Shown here in pieces: positions 43,247 through 53,095 of a stretch of 64,000 bases of DNA. This DNA comes from Thermococcus thermotolerans (GTDB taxonomy: Archaea > Methanobacteriota_B > Thermococci > Thermococcales > Thermococcaceae), in assembly GCF_024707485.1 (NCBI RefSeq), contig NZ_CP102602.1, positions 1,240,001 to 1,304,000 of the forward strand, written 5' to 3'. The position numbers and the translations under genes were made by a program. The notes under the pieces were generated by a model that saw nothing but the letters and a program-made list of their open reading frames with translations, did no database searches and was not told the DNA's origin. Within the stretch, counting starts at the first letter, position 1. Each line of letters starts with the position of its first letter.

Positions 43247-43322
43247 AGCCCCGTGGTGTAGCGGCCAAGCATGCGGGACTCTGGATCCCGCGACCGGGGT
43301 TCGAATCCCCGCGGGGCTACCA
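43247..43322 (+). tRNA. tRNA-Gln (anticodon CTG)
   Basis: Acceptor AGCCCCG pairs with CGGGGCT; anticodon stem CGGGA/TCCCG closes loop CTCTGGA (anticodon CTG); T arm GGTTCGAAT. Discriminator A and an encoded CCA end at 43322. No intron. Confidence 0.97.
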
Positions 43323-43729: not shown

Positions 43730-43945
43730 GTGAGCAAAGTAGTTAACCTGGAGGTTGAGATTACAGACCTCCTCAGAAGGCACGGATCGCTCAGTGTTGC
43801 TTTTCTGACTCGGTTTCTCAACGAAAGGGGCATCTTCTGTACAAGGCAGAAGGTCGAGAGAACCCTCAGGAAACTCGTGGAGCAAAAGAAAGTAGAGGCA
43901 TTCTACACCAACGGGAATAAAAGAAAGCATTACAGGTTGCGGTGA
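43730..43945 (+). CDS. Small winged-helix protein, fibre locus regulator A
   Basis: 71 residues forming a single winged helix (VEITDLLRRHGSLSVAFLTRFLNERGIFCTRQKVERTLRKLVEQKKVEAFYTNGNKRKHYRL). GTG 43730 follows GGTGAGGAT. It lies four bases before the next regulator and points toward the DUF1102 genes, so it may control them. No effector domain is present. Confidence 0.75.
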   Translation: MSKVVNLEVEITDLLRRHGSLSVAFLTRFLNERGIFCTRQKVERTLRKLVEQKKVEAFYTNGNKRKHYRLR

Positions 43946-43949
43946 TACG

Positions 43950-44396
43950 ATGGCTGGGAGCATTGACAGCTCAACCGTGATCCTCGGAAATACGAGGAGA
44001 ATGATGATGATTGAGTTCCTCCAACAGAGAGAGGGTCATGCCGAACTCAGAGAACTTGTGGAATACATAGCTGAAAGGGAGGGAGACACCAACCGGAAGC
44101 ACAGGAAAAGCGTCTATGTCAGCCTGATCCAGACACATATCCCCAAGCTGGAGCGGGAAGGTGTCGTAACGTTCAACCACGGCATCGTTACCCTTCTGAA
44201 GATCCCTGAAGATGTAACCGTCTACATGGAAGTTGTCAACAAGCACGACATCAGCTGGAGCACCTTCTACATGGGGACGTCGGTAATATTCATAATCGCT
44301 GGTTGGTATCTCGGCAGCATGTCCCTATTGCTGGCTGCCATGGTGTACCTGGTCATAAGTATAATCCACCACAGGAAAATTAAGAGGCTGTTCTAG
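43950..44396 (+). CDS. Membrane-anchored winged-helix protein (DUF7344-like), regulator B
   Basis: 148 residues. The N-terminal winged helix (residues about 8-90; STVILGNTRRMMMIEFLQQREGHAELRELVEYIAEREGD...RKSVYVSLIQTHIPKLEREGVVTFNHG) matches the DUF7344-type domain common in archaeal surface loci. Two C-terminal helices (about 105-140) anchor it to the membrane. GGTGATA precedes ATG. A one-component membrane regulator of the next operon is likely. Confidence 0.78.
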   Translation: MAGSIDSSTVILGNTRRMMMIEFLQQREGHAELRELVEYIAEREGDTNRKHRKSVYVSLIQTHIPKLEREGVVTFNHGIVTLLKIPEDVTVYMEVVNKHDISWSTFYMGTSVIFIIAGWYLGSMSLLLAAMVYLVISIIHHRKIKRLF

Positions 44397-44449
44397 CAGA
44401 TCACTGCTATAACTCGCCTGTTTTAATCAAATTGAGTTGTTTCACTCCT

Positions 44450-44466
44450 GGTAATGAGGGATTACC
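44450..44466 (+). promoter_or_regulatory. Palindrome upstream of the fibre operon TATA box
   Basis: GGTAAT-N5-ATTACC lies about 20 bases before the TATA element ACTATATAG (44486-44494). This is a normal activator position in archaea and a candidate site for the two upstream HTH proteins. Confidence 0.5.
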
Positions 44467-44485
44467 ACTCAGTAAGCCGGAATTT

Positions 44486-44494
44486 ACTATATAG
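44486..44494 (+). promoter_or_regulatory. TATA box of the DUF1102 fibre operon
   Basis: ACTATATAG. Transcription would start near 44515, leaving a leader of about 65 nt that contains GAGGC...GCCTC pairing bases (44516-44537) ahead of GGAGGAATG. Confidence 0.6.
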
Positions 44495-44579
44495 GTTGAC
44501 CCCGCCATAGTCAATGAGGCATCCCCATGATGGCCTCCGCCTAGGGTGTCGGTATTTGGAAAACATGGAGGAATGTACC

Positions 44580-45215
44580 ATGAAGAAAGTTTTGGCCCTC
44601 GGTATGCTGGGGCTGATGATCGCGGCGGCCTTTGCACTAGGCACGAGCGCAACCTTCAGGGACTACAGGGCCCAAAGGAGCGTTCATATCGCCGTTGTTC
44701 CAGACGACAGCGAGCTTATTGATCTAACGCCTGTCCAGCCCTACGCGTACCTTAACGATGGAGGGCAACTTGTTATTGACTTCTCAGCGGACAATCCCAA
44801 CTGGCCAGGATGGGATGATGAGAGCTGGTGGAAGTGGGACGAGGAGCAGAATATGCCAGTTCCTGCAAGAGGACTGGGACTCAGCCCACAGAGCAGGTAC
44901 AACTTTGACGAGGTATTTAACGTGAGCAACCACCTCTGGGAGCAGGAAACCATCGTAGTCAGGATTACCTCATCGGATCCCGGAATGGTCTCATTCTACG
45001 AGCCCAACGGCATGATGTACAACACAAACGGGGGCGGTCAGCCTTACAATTCGGATACAGCCGTCGGAGATGTCTGCTTCTATCTTGAACCCGGAGAGGC
45101 ACTTGGCGTTGGGATGGAACTCGCAGCAGCCAACACCTTGGGAAGCTACGACATAAACATAAACATCCAGGCATGGCCTGCCAGCGAAGCACCTATTGAG
45201 TGTGGAGGTGGCTGA
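44580..45215 (+). CDS. DUF1102 secreted fibre-type subunit 1 (TasA/AbpA-like)
   Basis: 211 residues. Signal peptide (KKVLALGMLGLMIAAAFALGTSA), then mature start TFRDYRAQRSVHIAVVPDDSELIDLTPVQPYAYLNDGGQLVIDF, the DUF1102 hallmark shared with the next gene. A jelly-roll-like beta domain follows and the end is a short ECGGG. DUF1102/TasA-like proteins polymerise by donating an N-terminal strand in archaeal bundling pili and bacterial matrix fibres; function here is by analogy. First gene of the operon, with GGAGGAATG. Confidence 0.85.
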   Translation: MKKVLALGMLGLMIAAAFALGTSATFRDYRAQRSVHIAVVPDDSELIDLTPVQPYAYLNDGGQLVIDFSADNPNWPGWDDESWWKWDEEQNMPVPARGLGLSPQSRYNFDEVFNVSNHLWEQETIVVRITSSDPGMVSFYEPNGMMYNTNGGGQPYNSDTAVGDVCFYLEPGEALGVGMELAAANTLGSYDININIQAWPASEAPIECGGG

Positions 45216-45216
45216 G

Positions 45217-45750
45217 ATGAGAAAGATCATAGGACTCTTTGCACTTATGATAGGACTCTTAGTTGCAGTAGCAGCAAGTAGCGCTCACTTTGCATACTTT
45301 GAAGCCGACAGAGGCGTCCACATCCAGGTTGTCCCGGATGACAGTGAGCTTATAGACCTACGGCCCATGCAACCCTACGCGTACATTAACGACAACGGTA
45401 TGCTGGTCATAGACCTGAGCAAGTACAACGGGAACTGGCAGGAAGGATTCGGTGAAGGCGTTAGTCCCAACAGCACGTATGTTTTCAAGGAAGTCTTCGG
45501 TGTCAGCAACGACCTTTGGGAAGGAACCCCAATCTGTATGCACATCACGTACAGCGGAGACGGTGGTGTCAAGTTCTTTGTTGGGAACTATACGGGTCAG
45601 CCCGGTGAGACCACCCTCGATGTAACCGTGATGCCCGGCGAAGTCGTGCCTATTGGACTTATTCTGGACAGCACTGGCTTGGTTGATGGAGACGCAATAA
45701 ACGGTCAGGTTCAGTTCTACGCGGTTCCTGGACCTTGCGAGGGAGAGTGA
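45217..45750 (+). CDS. DUF1102 secreted fibre-type subunit 2
   Basis: 177 residues. Signal peptide (RKIIGLFALMIGLLVAVAASSA), mature start HFAYFEADRGVHIQVVPDDSELIDLRPMQPYAYINDNGMLVIDLS, very like subunit 1. It lacks that protein's Trp-rich insert, so it may be the other fibre component or a cap. ATG 45217 directly follows the subunit 1 stop, with GGAGGTGG. A terminator-like hairpin (45764-45782) comes after it. Confidence 0.85.
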   Translation: MRKIIGLFALMIGLLVAVAASSAHFAYFEADRGVHIQVVPDDSELIDLRPMQPYAYINDNGMLVIDLSKYNGNWQEGFGEGVSPNSTYVFKEVFGVSNDLWEGTPICMHITYSGDGGVKFFVGNYTGQPGETTLDVTVMPGEVVPIGLILDSTGLVDGDAINGQVQFYAVPGPCEGE

Positions 45751-45763
45751 ACAGTTTAGTTCC

Positions 45764-45782
45764 GGAGCATTTGCTCCTTTTT
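45764..45782 (+). terminator. Hairpin-U-tract terminator after the two major subunits
   Basis: GGAGCA-TT-TGCTCC (45764-45777) followed by five T. It would end or attenuate most transcripts after subunit 2 and leave the downstream assembly genes at lower level. Confidence 0.65.
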
Positions 45783-45807
45783 ATCATATATGCAGGGGGA
45801 GAGAGAA

Positions 45808-46317
45808 GTGGAAAGGAGAACAAAGGTTGGCACGAGTATTGGAATCATCATAGTTCTACTCATAGGAGTATGGGAGATATACTCCGCAGATCCCCTAACG
45901 GTTGTCTACGCCACTCCAGAAAACGGAACATTGTCGGTTGATTATCCCGTCCCCCCGTATGCTTACTCTGATAGTGGTGTTCTTGTTATCGATATCTCAC
46001 CGGATAGCCCATTGTATCCTGGATACGGAGAGGGACTGGGTGCAAATTCCACATACGTATTTAATAACGCTTTTATCATTAAAAATAACCAGAGCCAGAC
46101 AGGATATAGCGAGATATGTGTGAGGATAGGCTCAGAGAACCAGAAGGTGGGATTTTTTGTCGGGAAGTTTGATGGGAACTGGAGCGGTACAGTTGAAGTC
46201 CAGCTGAATGCCAACGATAGCGTAGGTGTTGGAGTGAGGATTGACACCTACGGCCTCCACCTGGGAGACTACAGTGAAGGAATTACAATAGAAGCCTGGG
46301 GAGGAGGCTGCGGATGA
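45808..46317 (+). CDS. DUF1102-like minor subunit 3
   Basis: 169 residues. A signal anchor (VGTSIGIIIVLLIGVWEIYSA) is followed by PLTVVYATPENGTLSVDYPVPPYAYSDSGVLVIDIS and LGANSTYVFNNAFIIKNNQ, the DUF1102 pattern in shortened form, with several Asn-X-Ser/Thr sequons. GTG 45808 is chosen because GGGGGAG is six bases upstream; ATG 45790 has none. Its stop overlaps the signal peptidase ATG. Probably a minor or initiating subunit. Confidence 0.78.
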   Translation: MERRTKVGTSIGIIIVLLIGVWEIYSADPLTVVYATPENGTLSVDYPVPPYAYSDSGVLVIDISPDSPLYPGYGEGLGANSTYVFNNAFIIKNNQSQTGYSEICVRIGSENQKVGFFVGKFDGNWSGTVEVQLNANDSVGVGVRIDTYGLHLGDYSEGITIEAWGGGCG

Positions 46318-47378
46318 GAAGGATAGTGGAGTACCTAGCACTAACGATCGTAGGCATCCTCGTTACAGGTTCCCTCGTGGGTATGCTCCTAGACAGGCCG
46401 GTTTTTATGTCGTACGCATACTCCGGGAGCATGGAACCCACCATAAACAAGGGAGATGTATTTTTCATCAATCCCCTTTCAAGAAATCCCGGAGTGGGTG
46501 ACATTATCGTTTTTCAAACTGGAGATGTATGGACAGTTCACAGGGTTTACGCCGTTACTGAAGGTGGGTACATAACAAAAGGGGACAACAACATAGCAAC
46601 CGACCAGCAAAGCCACGATATCCCCCCGATACCCAAAGAGAGAATAGCGGGCACGGTGATTACAGTTAAAGGCACTCCCCTAAGGATACCCCAGCTTGGA
46701 AACTATCTTGGAACGGGTCTCTCAGACCGCGGAAAGGTGCTCCTTGCAGGTGCCCTAATACTAGTCGGAATTTTAGCATTCGCAGGAGACGAGACTTCAC
46801 ACTCCAGAAAAAGAAAGAAAAAAATTACAGTAAAGTTCAGGACGCTCTATGCACTAACATCAGTGTTCCTCCTAATTATGGTGGCCGTATCCACATTTGT
46901 TTCGTGGGAAACAGTACCCATAACTTATTCCGTTACCTCAGCGGGGGGACTAAGGGAGGGCTGGTATCTTCCAGGGGAGGAATTCCAGCAGGAAATTACA
47001 ATAAAGAACAGAAACCTATATCCTATGACGTATTTTGTCTCAATGGGGCCAACCATTACCGCCGTATCAGAGGACGGGTTCATGCTGAACGAGGGGGAAG
47101 AGAGATCCATCACTGTTACCCTGAAGGCTCCTCAAAAAACTGCAATGTATTCACCCAGATTACAAGTCAACGCATACATGCCAATCCTTCCAGTCTCAGT
47201 TCTGGATGAACTCTACAGAATTCATCCGATGGTGCCCCTCCTTGCCATTCTGATGGAGATTTCCCTGTTCCTTGGGGCGTTCTACGTAATCTCAGGCATC
47301 GGAAACGAGGATGTCCTTAGAATCAGGAGAAGGAGGACTTCCTTCCTTAGAGGGATATCGGAGGTGTTTAGGATATGA
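46314..47378 (+). CDS. SipW/ER-type signal peptidase I with C-terminal extension
   Basis: 354 residues. A membrane helix leads to the catalytic region: Ser39 in YSGSMEPTINKGDVFFI, His76 in VWTVHRVYAV replacing Lys as in ER/SipW enzymes, and the Asp box GYITKGDNNIATDQQSHD. After a second helix (about 140-160) there is a basic loop, a third helix, an outer beta domain (about 200-290) and a last helix. The extension is unusual and could hold subunits during assembly. It would process the adjacent secreted subunits. Confidence 0.88.
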   Translation: MRRIVEYLALTIVGILVTGSLVGMLLDRPVFMSYAYSGSMEPTINKGDVFFINPLSRNPGVGDIIVFQTGDVWTVHRVYAVTEGGYITKGDNNIATDQQSHDIPPIPKERIAGTVITVKGTPLRIPQLGNYLGTGLSDRGKVLLAGALILVGILAFAGDETSHSRKRKKKITVKFRTLYALTSVFLLIMVAVSTFVSWETVPITYSVTSAGGLREGWYLPGEEFQQEITIKNRNLYPMTYFVSMGPTITAVSEDGFMLNEGEERSITVTLKAPQKTAMYSPRLQVNAYMPILPVSVLDELYRIHPMVPLLAILMEISLFLGAFYVISGIGNEDVLRIRRRRTSFLRGISEVFRI

Positions 47379-48424
47379 AAGCTCTGTTCTCAATTATTAT
47401 AACGTTCGCACTGGCATCGCTGATTCTCGTAGGCTCCAGTGGAACCTTTGTAAACTTTGAAGCATCGAGAGAAGTCAAAGTTGCCGTCGTTCCCCATGAT
47501 AAGGAGTACCTCGGCTTTGACTGTGAAGGCGGCTATGCCGCAGTTGTGGAAGTCAGCCCATACAGCGAGACTGACTTTGATGCGCTGACGGTAAGGAACT
47601 ATCTGAACGAAATGAAGGATGTATGGATCTCGCTCGACCCGGACTACTCCGACCTTCCGGGCAACGTGGACATGTTCATAGAAACCGAAGACGGCGCCGA
47701 GCGGATGATAGCCCCAGAGGATGAGTACACCTTTGCCGGCCATGTGAACGTAAGTGATGTCGCGCCGGGGGAGTACGTAATCCCGATTACAATGCGCGCC
47801 CGCTGGAATGGCGGAGATGCCGTTGTAGAAACCTGCCCAATAAAACTCGTCGTCACTGGTGACCCGACCATAGAAAAGATACTCCTCTACGGCAACACCA
47901 GCGGGATACCCCTGAAGACGTACCAAGAATGGATCTTCCAGATACTGGTAACAAATCCAACCGGGGATGACCTCACCCTGACCATAACCGACACGATACC
48001 CGCGGAGTTCAACGTGAGTCTGAGCGGAACCAGCGCAAGTGCCGGTACGTACAGGTTCTGGGCAGCAAACGATGGCAACCAGTGCGGAGGGCACTGTGGA
48101 GGAGGACACGGGGGACACAACGCCCGGCCGGCCACAAAGATGGAATGGAACGTAACTGTTCCAGCGGGAGGGAGCGTCCACATAAACATAACAATATTCA
48201 CCAGAGTGAACCCCGGAGGACAGCAGGAGTTTACCTCGTGCGGCGAGTACAGCCTGAACGAAGGGGCCACCATAGTTCAGTACGGCATAACGAGCAATGC
48301 TCTCGTCGTGACCGTGGATTGCTGCGATGACCACGATGGGTGCTGCCAGGAGCAGGATGAATGCGGATGCAATCACGACCACAGTTCTAATCATGAAAAC
48401 GGCACAGGAGAATGTGAAGGATGA
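47375..48424 (+). CDS. Large DUF1102-related subunit with Cys/His-rich tail
   Basis: 349 residues. Signal peptide (KALFSIIITFALASLILVGSSG), then TFVNFEASREVKVAVVPHDKEYLGFDCEGG, the DUF1102 start. A second domain (about 165-300; DPTIEKILLYGNTSGIPLKTYQEWIFQILVTNPTGDDLTLTITDTIPAEFNVSLSG) is DUF11/CARDB-like. It has an insert GGHCGGGHGGH and ends CCDDHDGCCQEQDECGCNHDHSS, dense in Cys/His/Asp. Metal binding or disulfide cross-linking at the surface is suggested. Coupled by ATGA to both neighbours. Confidence 0.78.
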   Translation: MKALFSIIITFALASLILVGSSGTFVNFEASREVKVAVVPHDKEYLGFDCEGGYAAVVEVSPYSETDFDALTVRNYLNEMKDVWISLDPDYSDLPGNVDMFIETEDGAERMIAPEDEYTFAGHVNVSDVAPGEYVIPITMRARWNGGDAVVETCPIKLVVTGDPTIEKILLYGNTSGIPLKTYQEWIFQILVTNPTGDDLTLTITDTIPAEFNVSLSGTSASAGTYRFWAANDGNQCGGHCGGGHGGHNARPATKMEWNVTVPAGGSVHINITIFTRVNPGGQQEFTSCGEYSLNEGATIVQYGITSNALVVTVDCCDDHDGCCQEQDECGCNHDHSSNHENGTGECEG

Positions 48425-49443
48425 AGAAGGAAAAGTTGGTTAGGTTTATTAGAAGGAAGGAAGTCCTGGGAGTATTCCTGATTCTCTTCCTGGTCTTTGC
48501 ATTTTACTCAGTGAAGCTCATGAGCGCAAGCCCGTACGTGGTGAACACCCAGACCCTGGGAACGTTTAAGGAAGAGGGACAGCTGAAGCACGCCGCTTAT
48601 CTCAAGCCCAACGAAATCTACGGGTACATGGTCTTCAGGGACGAATATCCTATATCCCTCGTTGACAGGTTCCTGCTGACGTACACATACAGCTCAAACC
48701 CGCCGCTCAGCACCGGCACCTATGAAGTCACCGGAAAGGTTGTATACTACGTCACCAAGGGGAGCGAAGAGGTCACCATGTGGGAAGGCACGCTCTTTGA
48801 TGAGAAGGGCAAGCTCCAGAACGGCGGATTCACAGTGGAGTACACGCTCGACATGGGAGAGCTGGACAGGATGACTGCAGAGGTGTCCAATGAGCTTGGA
48901 ATGAAAAGGCTAAACAGAAGGGTAATCATAACGACAAAGGTCTCGGGAACCGGCAAAGTCGGTGGAAAGGAGATAACCAGGAGCTTTGACCATGAGGTTG
49001 AACTCATCAGGGACAGCGGAGCCGGGCTTTACTACTTCACTGACACCAGCAAGACTGCAAAGAAAACCCTGACAACGACAACCAAGGAAGAAGTCAGTGC
49101 AAGCGTTCTGGGAGTAACCAGCAACCTCGATACGGCGAAGGTAGTGACCACAGTGCTGGCACTTCTGATGCTGATACCCCTGGTGGGCTACGTTTACACA
49201 TCAAGACCGCCCAAGGATGAGCTGGCCAAGATAAGGCCGTACATAGTCAAGGGCGCACCCGGGCCCGTCCAGAAAAGGGTCGTCCTGAAGACCCCCAAGG
49301 ATTTGGAGACGACCTTCGAGCTTGTGGACAAGCCGATACTACACTACATAGACGGTGAGGACGAGGTCTTCGCCATAATAGACGACGGAATATCGTACGA
49401 GTACCGGAAGCCATTGCCCCAGGGAGGGGATGAGGCCAGCTGA
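48421..49443 (+). CDS. DUF5305 membrane protein of the fibre operon
   Basis: 340 residues. One N-terminal helix (VLGVFLILFLVFAFYSVKLM), an extracellular beta domain (about 45-240; FKEEGQLKHAAYLKPNEIYG...RFLLTYTYSSNPPLSTGTYEVTGKVVYYV), a second helix (VVTTVLALLMLIPLVGYVY) and a cytosolic tail (about 260-340). This is the DUF5305 layout, repeatedly found with SipW-like peptidases in archaeal loci. An assembly platform role is inferred. Starts by ATGA overlap; last gene of the operon. Confidence 0.82.
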   Translation: MKKEKLVRFIRRKEVLGVFLILFLVFAFYSVKLMSASPYVVNTQTLGTFKEEGQLKHAAYLKPNEIYGYMVFRDEYPISLVDRFLLTYTYSSNPPLSTGTYEVTGKVVYYVTKGSEEVTMWEGTLFDEKGKLQNGGFTVEYTLDMGELDRMTAEVSNELGMKRLNRRVIITTKVSGTGKVGGKEITRSFDHEVELIRDSGAGLYYFTDTSKTAKKTLTTTTKEEVSASVLGVTSNLDTAKVVTTVLALLMLIPLVGYVYTSRPPKDELAKIRPYIVKGAPGPVQKRVVLKTPKDLETTFELVDKPILHYIDGEDEVFAIIDDGISYEYRKPLPQGGDEAS

Positions 49444-51911: not shown

Positions 51912-51959
51912 GGTTAGCCGTAACTTGCATGAAGTTTGTAAACGTCGTTACGGCTAACC
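51912..51959 (-). ncRNA. Large hairpin at the tnpB 3' end, omega-RNA scaffold candidate
   Basis: GGTTAGCCGTAAC (51912-51924) pairs perfectly over 13 bp with GTTACGGCTAACC (51947-51959). It spans the tnpB stop codon. TnpB guide RNAs (reRNA/omega-RNA) are made from the tnpB 3' end and the element end, with a guide taken from flanking DNA, so this should be the scaffold stem. The guide would read left of about 51890. Confidence 0.65.
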
Positions 51960-53095
51960 TTCCCCACTCCCATCTTCATTGTGGAGCTTTCAGGGGGAAC
52001 GGAAACTCCCCACATCTTCAGGGCTCTCAAACGAATATTCCAACTCCCAACCACATCACGGTCGGCTTCAAAACCACAGTTTGAGCACTTCAAGACCCTG
52101 CCCCCATTCGGGCTTAGTTTCTCCCCACATACCGGGCACAGGGAGGAAGTATGAGCAGGATTCACGAAAACAATCCTAACACCCTTCAGCTTAGCCTTGT
52201 ATTCAATAATTGATTGAAGCTTCCTAAAACTCCAACGGTGAAGACGACCATTCATTTCAGCCGAATACCTGATTGAATCCCTGATTTCAGTCAAATCTTC
52301 AAGGGCAATTCCACCGTATTTTTCCGCCAATTCCACTATTTTGTTAGCAAGCTTGTGATAAAGGTCGTTAAGCCTGTTCCTCTCCCTCCGCCCGTATTTT
52401 TCAAGGAGTTCCTCCCTCTTCCTTCCAGCCCTGATTTTCCCCTGTATTCTCCGCCTCTTCACAAAGTAGCCCGTCCTAATCTCCCGCTCGTGAGTGATTA
52501 TTTGAACGAATTCCCCGTTTGGAAGACTGAGCGTTACGTTGTTCTCATTCAAATCAACTCCAACAAAAGCTTTCGGCTCGCTAACTTCAACCTCTTTCGA
52601 GAAAACAACGTTGAGAAAAGTTCCTTTCGGCGTTCTAACCAACCACGCCTGCCCAACCTTCCAGTCCCTGAATTTCTCATGGTATTTTGCAGGATAAAAC
52701 TCTAATTGAACCCTCCCGTCCGGAGTGGAGAGTTTTACAGTTCTATTCTCCAAGTCGAGTTTGAACAGGTGGTCGTCGAGCATTATGACGTCCCTCTTGA
52801 AAACTGGCCTGCCTTTTGCCTTCCCCTTCTTCTTCCGCTTCCTAAAGCTTTTGAAGATTGATGTAGCCATCTGGCAAGCCGTGTAAAGGTAATGACTCGG
52901 AAGCTCTGAATACTCATTACGAAGGCTCTTGTAGGTTTCCTTTTTGAGCCTGTAAAAGCTGGTTATGTTGTTCTCAAAAGCGTGAGTGATGAGGTAGTTC
53001 ACGATTTCCCGATAAGTTTGGAAAAGCTCTTCTAATCCCTCTGGAGTTTCCTTGAGTTTGAATTTGGCGGTGAGCTTAATCGTCTCTGAGGGCAT
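51914..53095 (-). CDS. tnpB: TnpB RNA-guided nuclease (IS605/IS607 type)
   Basis: 393 residues. The N-terminal helical/beta part has TAKFKLKETPEGLEELFQTYREIVNYL; the RuvC-like nuclease has Asp181 (FVGVDLNENN), Glu266 (IALEDLTEIRDS) and the Asp345/Asp347 region (FEADRDVVGSWNI). The zinc ribbon lies between (CPVCGEK...CSNCG, Cys320-Cys340). All are intact. TnpB is an omega-RNA-guided DNA endonuclease, ancestor of Cas12, that favours element retention. Confidence 0.95.
   Translation of the reverse strand: MPSETIKLTAKFKLKETPEGLEELFQTYREIVNYLITHAFENNITSFYRLKKETYKSLRNEYSELPSHYLYTACQMATSIFKSFRKRKKKGKAKGRPVFKRDVIMLDDHLFKLDLENRTVKLSTPDGRVQLEFYPAKYHEKFRDWKVGQAWLVRTPKGTFLNVVFSKEVEVSEPKAFVGVDLNENNVTLSLPNGEFVQIITHEREIRTGYFVKRRRIQGKIRAGRKREELLEKYGRRERNRLNDLYHKLANKIVELAEKYGGIALEDLTEIRDSIRYSAEMNGRLHRWSFRKLQSIIEYKAKLKGVRIVFVNPAHTSSLCPVCGEKLSPNGGRVLKCSNCGFEADRDVVGSWNIRLRALKMWGVSVPPESSTMKMGVGKVSRNDVYKLHASYG

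Follow-up and report, generated by a model that had tools for sequence, protein, structure and literature searches.

Two described systems stand closest to the locus examined here. The archaeal bundling pilus is made of AbpA, a TasA-related subunit that is assembled by donor strands (PMC9674648, PMC10151520). In Bacillus, TasA itself carries a phenylalanine two residues past its cleavage site (position P2') and is cut by SipW, a dedicated signal peptidase of the endoplasmic reticulum (ER) type; the Escherichia coli peptidase LepB processes sites with a P2' Phe poorly (PMC10269814). Here we analyse an eight-gene operon of the archaeon Thermococcus thermotolerans, which lies at positions 43730-49443 of a window of 64,000 nucleotides (nt), the whole stretch of DNA under analysis (assembly GCF_024707485.1, contig NZ_CP102602.1, positions 1,240,001-1,304,000, forward strand; coordinates of the locus are window positions).

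The original prediction, made from this sequence, had described the locus as a complete TasA/AbpA-like fibre operon with its own SipW-type signal peptidase. On the evidence of its genes and of a predicted structure, we consider it probable that this is a dedicated operon for a Sec-exported surface fibre of the donor-strand type, built from subunits of the family DUF1102. The kind of system is already known, in that archaeal fibres assembled by donor strands and processed by signal peptidase I have been described, and the DUF1102 operon probably resembles the Bacillus TasA biofilm fibre without belonging to the same family. A search of 5.39 million papers found no mention of DUF1102, and the gene cluster is apparently undescribed so far. 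Two of its elements are new here: the palindromic operator RGTAAY-N5-RTTACY and a covarying hairpin after the second subunit gene, S2.

Results

A conserved operon of DUF1102 proteins, a signal peptidase and DUF5305

The locus contains the following features.

43730-43945, + strand: HTH1, a small putative winged-helix regulator of 71 amino acids (aa) with a GTG start; weak Pfam helix-turn-helix (HTH) matches
43950-44396, + strand: HTH2, a DUF7344 winged-helix protein of 148 aa with C-terminal membrane segment(s); DUF7344 E value 4e-19, hydrophobic segment 121-139
44450-44466, no strand: palindromic operator GGTAAT-GAGGG-ATTACC (RGTAAY-N5-RTTACY), recognized by its uniqueness and conservation
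44477-44494, + strand: putative B recognition element (BRE) and TATA element CCGGAATTTACTATATAG of the S1 promoter; kept by close relatives, agrees with the archaeal promoter consensus
44580-45215, + strand: S1, DUF1102 subunit of 211 aa, predicted cleavage A24|T25-F26; Pfam E value 2e-40
45217-45750, + strand: S2, DUF1102 subunit of 177 aa, predicted cleavage A23|H24-F25; Pfam E value 2e-37
45764-45782, + strand: hairpin GGAGC-ATTT-GCTCC followed by T5, in the gap between S2 and S3; covarying and single-copy, a possible attenuator or element for mRNA processing
45790-46317, + strand: S3, DUF1102 protein of 175 aa with an N-terminal membrane segment, lacking the A-x-F site and the donor-strand extension; Pfam E value 3e-29
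46314-47378, + strand: ER-type (Ser39/His76) signal peptidase of 354 aa with a C-terminal extension made of a transmembrane (TM) segment, an extracellular domain and a second TM segment; TIGR02228 E value 4e-18
47375-48424, + strand: S4, 349 aa, predicted site G23|T24-F25, with a DUF1102-related N-terminal domain, a DUF11/immunoglobulin (Ig)-like second domain and a Cys/His-rich tail
48421-49443, + strand: DUF5305 membrane protein of 340 aa, TM segments 9-27 and 241-259; Pfam E value 6e-11

All eight predicted open reading frames (ORFs) are present, and ATGA overlaps at 46314, 47375 and 48421 link S3, the peptidase, S4 and DUF5305. The best start choices for S1 and S2 are 44580 (MKKVLALG) and 45217 (MRKIIGLF); most starts are preceded by G-rich ribosome-binding sites, that of S3 being without one. 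The family assignments of the original prediction held for the three small DUF1102 proteins, with S1, S2 and S3 at 138, 129 and 103 bits against a curated cut-off of 22.2 for DUF1102 (PF06510), and for the DUF5305 protein. They stood in part for S4 and the regulators. S4, predicted to be DUF1102-related, has no DUF1102 match in Pfam, but comparison of profiles with hhalign relates its first domain to the family at an E value of 4e-14 including the signal region and of 1e-5 for the core alone; its second domain resembles DUF11 in 19 of 31 members. Of the two proteins predicted to be HTH regulators, HTH2 is a clear DUF7344 protein, but HTH1 is called on weak Pfam matches alone (E values of at least 0.006).

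A search for neighbourhoods combining DUF1102, a SipW-like peptidase and DUF5305, which had been suggested as a check, found their order conserved in Thermococcales and Archaeoglobales. This conservation exceeds chance by far: of the 94 Thermococcales genomes, 87 have DUF1102 (among good genomes, 72 of 74), and each of the 19 Thermococcales loci inspected has at least two DUF1102 genes, the peptidase and DUF5305 in the same order, with S3 in 14 of these loci and S4 absent from one. In most Thermococcales, HTH1 is kept 5' of HTH2. Scanning 84,980 species genomes added 39 loci, all from Thermococci or Archaeoglobales/Geoglobus, most of which keep the operon; in five Archaeoglobi DUF5305 lies upstream on the opposite strand.

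The predicted fold of S2 resembles subunits of donor-strand filaments

Structure prediction of the subunits had been proposed as a test of the TasA/AbpA likeness. The AlphaFold2 model of S2, built with 95 homologues, has a mean predicted local distance difference test score (pLDDT) of 84 and is all-beta after the signal helix; residues 22-29, which span the cleavage site and the new N-terminus, are disordered. When this model was compared with 350,542 PDB chains by Foldseek, the first-ranked match was AbpA of Pyrobaculum (7ueg; E value 7.8e-5, probability 1.00), ranks 2 to 8 were FimA structures, several of them self-complemented or N-terminally reversed, and rank 9 was the Sulfolobus thread (7pnb). 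An unbiased search thus returned mostly subunits of donor-strand filaments, and these matches to AbpA, FimA and the thread make a fibre of this type the best reading of the locus. The predicted beta fold is nearest the AbpA pilus, as had been expected, but TasA is not among the 50 best matches.

Besides this absence of TasA, several observations count against the fibre. The structural alignment of S2 with 7ueg has a global TM-score of 0.43, 14% identity and a high root mean square deviation, and was made with a single monomer model. Searched by sequence against the PDB, S2 and the DUF1102 profiles gave chance matches only and S4 gave none; with no solved relative by sequence, the link to a known fold rests on one predicted model. 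S4 is modelled with Ig-like domains (pLDDT 83), and its Foldseek matches are generic Ig-domain proteins, to which we give no weight toward a fibre. In favour of a fibre, the commonest weak matches of DUF1102 are to the NCBIfam fimbrial families TafA (NF052520; 47 of 95 members) and TafE (NF052522; 18 of 95), with a best E value of 1.5e-6; against it, much of the similarity to TafA lies in the signal and N-terminal region. The proposal as a whole draws on genes and the monomer model of S2. Matches to the Taf fimbrial families (TafA, TafE and TafF) fall far under the curated cut-offs, at about 25 against 190 bits; across 115 genomes from the phylum, no match to any of these families exceeds its cut-off, and our literature searches found nothing on Taf fimbriae.

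A dedicated ER-type peptidase and its predicted substrates

The operon peptidase is an archaeal signal peptidase I that also matches Peptidase_S26. Its Ser39, His76 and GD/D91 box are shared without change by 12 diverse orthologues; the SipW model scores it at 37.8 bits, under its cut-off of 190. Its C-terminal extension runs from one TM segment to another, and the stretch of about 110 external residues between them bears a conserved T.AGG.R..W..P motif. In all 78 S1/S2 homologues the predicted site combines a P1 Ala with a P2' Phe, and in all 31 S4 homologues it has Phe at P2', with Gly or Ser at P1; the A-x-F motif is absent from all 17 S3-type sequences. The likeness of these P2' Phe sites to that of SipW-cut TasA is our main reason for pairing the operon peptidase with S1, S2 and S4. 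The invariant ER-type catalytic residues and the SipW-like motif on these three proteins bear out the claim that the locus has a SipW-type peptidase of its own. The prediction of a complete system with DUF5305 as its platform was not supported as such: judged from its sequence, the protein resembles an anchor that has two TM segments and a large external domain.

Two more archaeal-type signal peptidase genes lie elsewhere in the genome, at 1720175 and 1708081. At about 1.708 Mb (L080:7659-8630), a small secreted beta-rich protein of 128 aa lies directly 5' of a signal peptidase I of 188 aa, and the two may form another pair of peptidase and substrate. In the tree of DUF1102-operon peptidases, those from Archaeoglobus and Archaeoglobaceae metagenome-assembled genomes (L044, L045, L053 and L064) fall in two places among the Thermococcales ones, which suggests lateral transfer or, several of the genomes being metagenome-assembled, misbinned contigs. 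In genome G073 (L020:6272-7338) the operon peptidase is divided into two overlapping ORFs of 228 and 147 aa, by a frameshift or a real split.

A single operator and a covarying hairpin

The palindrome at 44450-44466 lies 10 bp 5' of the BRE/TATA-like element and has no second copy in the 2.07 Mb genome; 0.02 copies would be expected in the window. Across 39 loci its half-sites are invariant and its spacer is variable. The operator is present in 86 of 94 genomes; of the 40 listed genomes bearing DUF1102 that were compared by hand, 38 have it at the locus (G012 has none and G029 was not checkable), and the two good genomes without DUF1102, G026 and G041, are also without the operator. It accompanies 30 of 33 loci with HTH1 and 7 of 22 without a detected HTH1, a comparison confounded by lineage, and in some loci HTH2 is the only regulator of the two. 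The obvious candidate binders of the operator are HTH1 and HTH2.

The hairpin is likewise single-copy in the genome, and about 35 loci have a stem with an NTTT loop 13-36 nt past the S2 stop codon. The 27 distinct sequences keep every one of their 135 pair cells, with two-sided changes in three of the five pairs, and the covariation score was reached by none of 500 shuffles and was lost on sliding. Because the pattern used to gather the rows prescribes the loop and its closing C-G pair, only the outer pairs test the structure independently. In many Archaeoglobi loci, T-rich tracts take the place of the hairpin. We read the hairpin as a possible dosage element that lets S1 and S2 exceed the assembly proteins; a role in processing or stabilization is equally possible.

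A separate TasA operon on the same chassis

The TasA/camelysin family PF12389 matches only 3 of 95 DUF1102 members, at a best E value of 0.14, and the SipW-dependent signal model TIGR04088 matches none of the 95 at an E value of up to 10. TIGR04088 does match proteins of a different operon in other Thermococcales. This operon encodes two subunits that match PF12389 and TIGR04088, a third protein with an A-x-F site, a SipW-like peptidase (308-332 aa) bearing a TM extension, and DUF5305; as a rule it also includes a gene for a small membrane protein. It occurs, as judged by strong DUF5305 matches, in about 11 of 94 Thermococcales genomes, at L097:7184-11447 (G013), L099:6906-11084 (G030) and eight further loci (L102-L109, with no TasA1 or TasA2 detected in L104); G013, G030, G031 and G071 have both operon types.

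The DUF5305 profile of the DUF1102 operon matches the DUF5305 of the TasA operon with an E value of 1e-20, and its peptidase profile matches the TasA-operon peptidases at 4e-11 (1e-16 at full length; only 5e-4 for the extension alone), the peptidase tree having one group per operon type. By these profile comparisons, two subunit families, TasA and DUF1102, ride on one chassis of peptidase and DUF5305, which supports a TasA/AbpA-like way of working and argues against identity with TasA.

Across the phylum, 73 of 115 genomes have PF12389 proteins. The T. thermotolerans genome has a single such gene, an orphan about 112 kb downstream of the operon (L094:7119-7715, about 1401.1-1401.7 kb; E value 8e-7), whose product weakly matches the TasA structures 5of1 and 8aur by phmmer (E value 0.07). 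It has a degenerate SipW-type site (..AKSLFTD..) and adjoins a gene resembling haloacid dehalogenase (HAD)-family phosphatases among unrelated neighbours; this neighbourhood is kept in L096 and partly in L098.

Neighbouring features

A tRNA gene at 43247-43319 (+), just 5' of the operon, is the sole Rfam match nearby. A 334-aa open frame antisense to S4 (47390-48394, -) is probably a by-product of codon composition. Judged from its translation alone, the frame at 51914-53095 (-) encodes a 393-aa TnpB-like protein of the IS605/IS200 type with a C-terminal zinc-finger motif.

Discussion

We propose that HTH1 and/or HTH2 would control the S1 promoter through the single operator. S1, S2 and S4 would be exported as membrane-tethered precursors and cut before x-Phe by the operon peptidase, which would free an extension of about 20 residues (T-F-R-D-Y-.. 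or H-F-A-Y-F-..). The fold matches to AbpA and FimA, together with the example of TasA, suggest that this extension could fill the missing strand in the beta-sandwich of the next subunit. S3 would accept a strand and give none and may thus be the anchor or terminator of the fibre. For S4 we envisage a minor adaptor, tip or adhesin, and for DUF5305 a possible anchor in the membrane or assembly factor. The hairpin would keep the subunits abundant relative to the assembly proteins.

The strongest alternatives are that the products form something other than a fibre, or that the fibre is TasA itself. A non-fibrous surface coat or secreted complex, with the dedicated peptidase merely serving odd signal peptides, would suit a DUF1102 system known from genes and models and not from filaments, the Ig and DUF11 domains of S4, which are typical of surface coats, and the presence of camelysin-family proteins at the cell surface. 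We nevertheless judge it unlikely, since S2 matches pilus subunits specifically and the N-terminal extension past the cleavage site is conserved, being missing only in the membrane-anchored paralogue S3. It is similarly doubtful that the operon is a TasA-type system with subunits homologous to TasA. The A-x-F site, the order of the subunits, the dedicated ER-type peptidase and DUF5305 are all alike, and the last two are of common ancestry; however, PF12389 and TIGR04088 do not recognize DUF1102 and yet match a separate operon of like order, sometimes in the same genome, and each operon type has its own group of peptidases.

Two further alternatives carry far less weight. It could be held that the operator and the S2-S3 hairpin reflect chance or the general make-up of promoters and terminators, as single-sequence folding of the hairpin region is unremarkable (z -0.24) and a terminator scan gave no excess, but we think this very improbable given an operator that is unique in the genome and stays with the DUF1102 locus, and a hairpin that is both unique and covarying. 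A type IV pilus or archaellum-like system is hardly credible and was rejected. Such filaments do occur in Thermococcales, and the operon does encode small proteins with N-terminal hydrophobic segments, but its eight genes include no class III signal peptide peptidase, secretion ATPase or TadC-like platform and provide a signal peptidase I instead; the fold predicted for the subunit, in place of a pilin helix with a head, is an all-beta sandwich that follows a cleaved signal.

The donor-strand fibre of DUF1102 subunits can also be cast in a bolder form: an undescribed pilus lineage, near-universal in Thermococcales and present in Archaeoglobales, which shares a peptidase and DUF5305 chassis with TasA and has S3 as a non-donating base, a one-site regulon and a dosage hairpin. 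We advance this version tentatively, with less assurance than the fibre as such. If the fibre exists, almost all Thermococcales carry the genes for a second type of surface fibre in addition to archaella, with its own peptidase and switch, in a group that includes the genetically tractable Thermococcus kodakarensis. The TasA and DUF1102 families would be tied to one peptidase/DUF5305 chassis, DUF1102, DUF5305 and DUF7344 would gain a role, and a heat-stable self-assembling fibre would be on offer.

The original prediction of a Thermococcales equivalent of the TasA/AbpA system is supported in part, by the dedicated peptidase, the P2' Phe sites, a predicted fold nearest to that of AbpA and the conserved operon with regulators, but not by the subunit sequences, which fall outside PF12389 and TIGR04088. 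The thread of Sulfolobus acidocaldarius (Saci_0406, 7pnb) is likewise a donor-strand filament of subunits processed by Sec and signal peptidase I, and ranks ninth for S2; it is a weaker fold match than AbpA, and no dedicated peptidase is reported in its cluster (PMC9715654). AbpA of Pyrobaculum calidifontis comes from an archaeal hyperthermophile and is the best fold match of S2, yet it has no sequence match with DUF1102, and identity and TM-score in the structural alignment are low. The tapA-sipW-tasA operon of Bacillus and sipW-calY of B. cereus share P2' Phe subunits, a dedicated ER-type peptidase alongside, a minor subunit and regulators with the DUF1102 operon, and differ in that their family models do not recognize DUF1102, while separate TasA operons coexist in Thermococcales. 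We know of no described counterpart of DUF5305, S3 or S4 in Bacillus. The true counterpart of tapA-sipW-tasA is not the present locus, as had been proposed, but the Thermococcales TasA operon, which resembles the DUF1102 operon in its gene order, its A-x-F proteins (two subunits and one other), its DUF5305 and its SipW-like peptidase bearing a TM extension, and differs from it in having PF12389 subunits, a peptidase of the other group and a presence in about 11 of 94 genomes, as against 87 for DUF1102.

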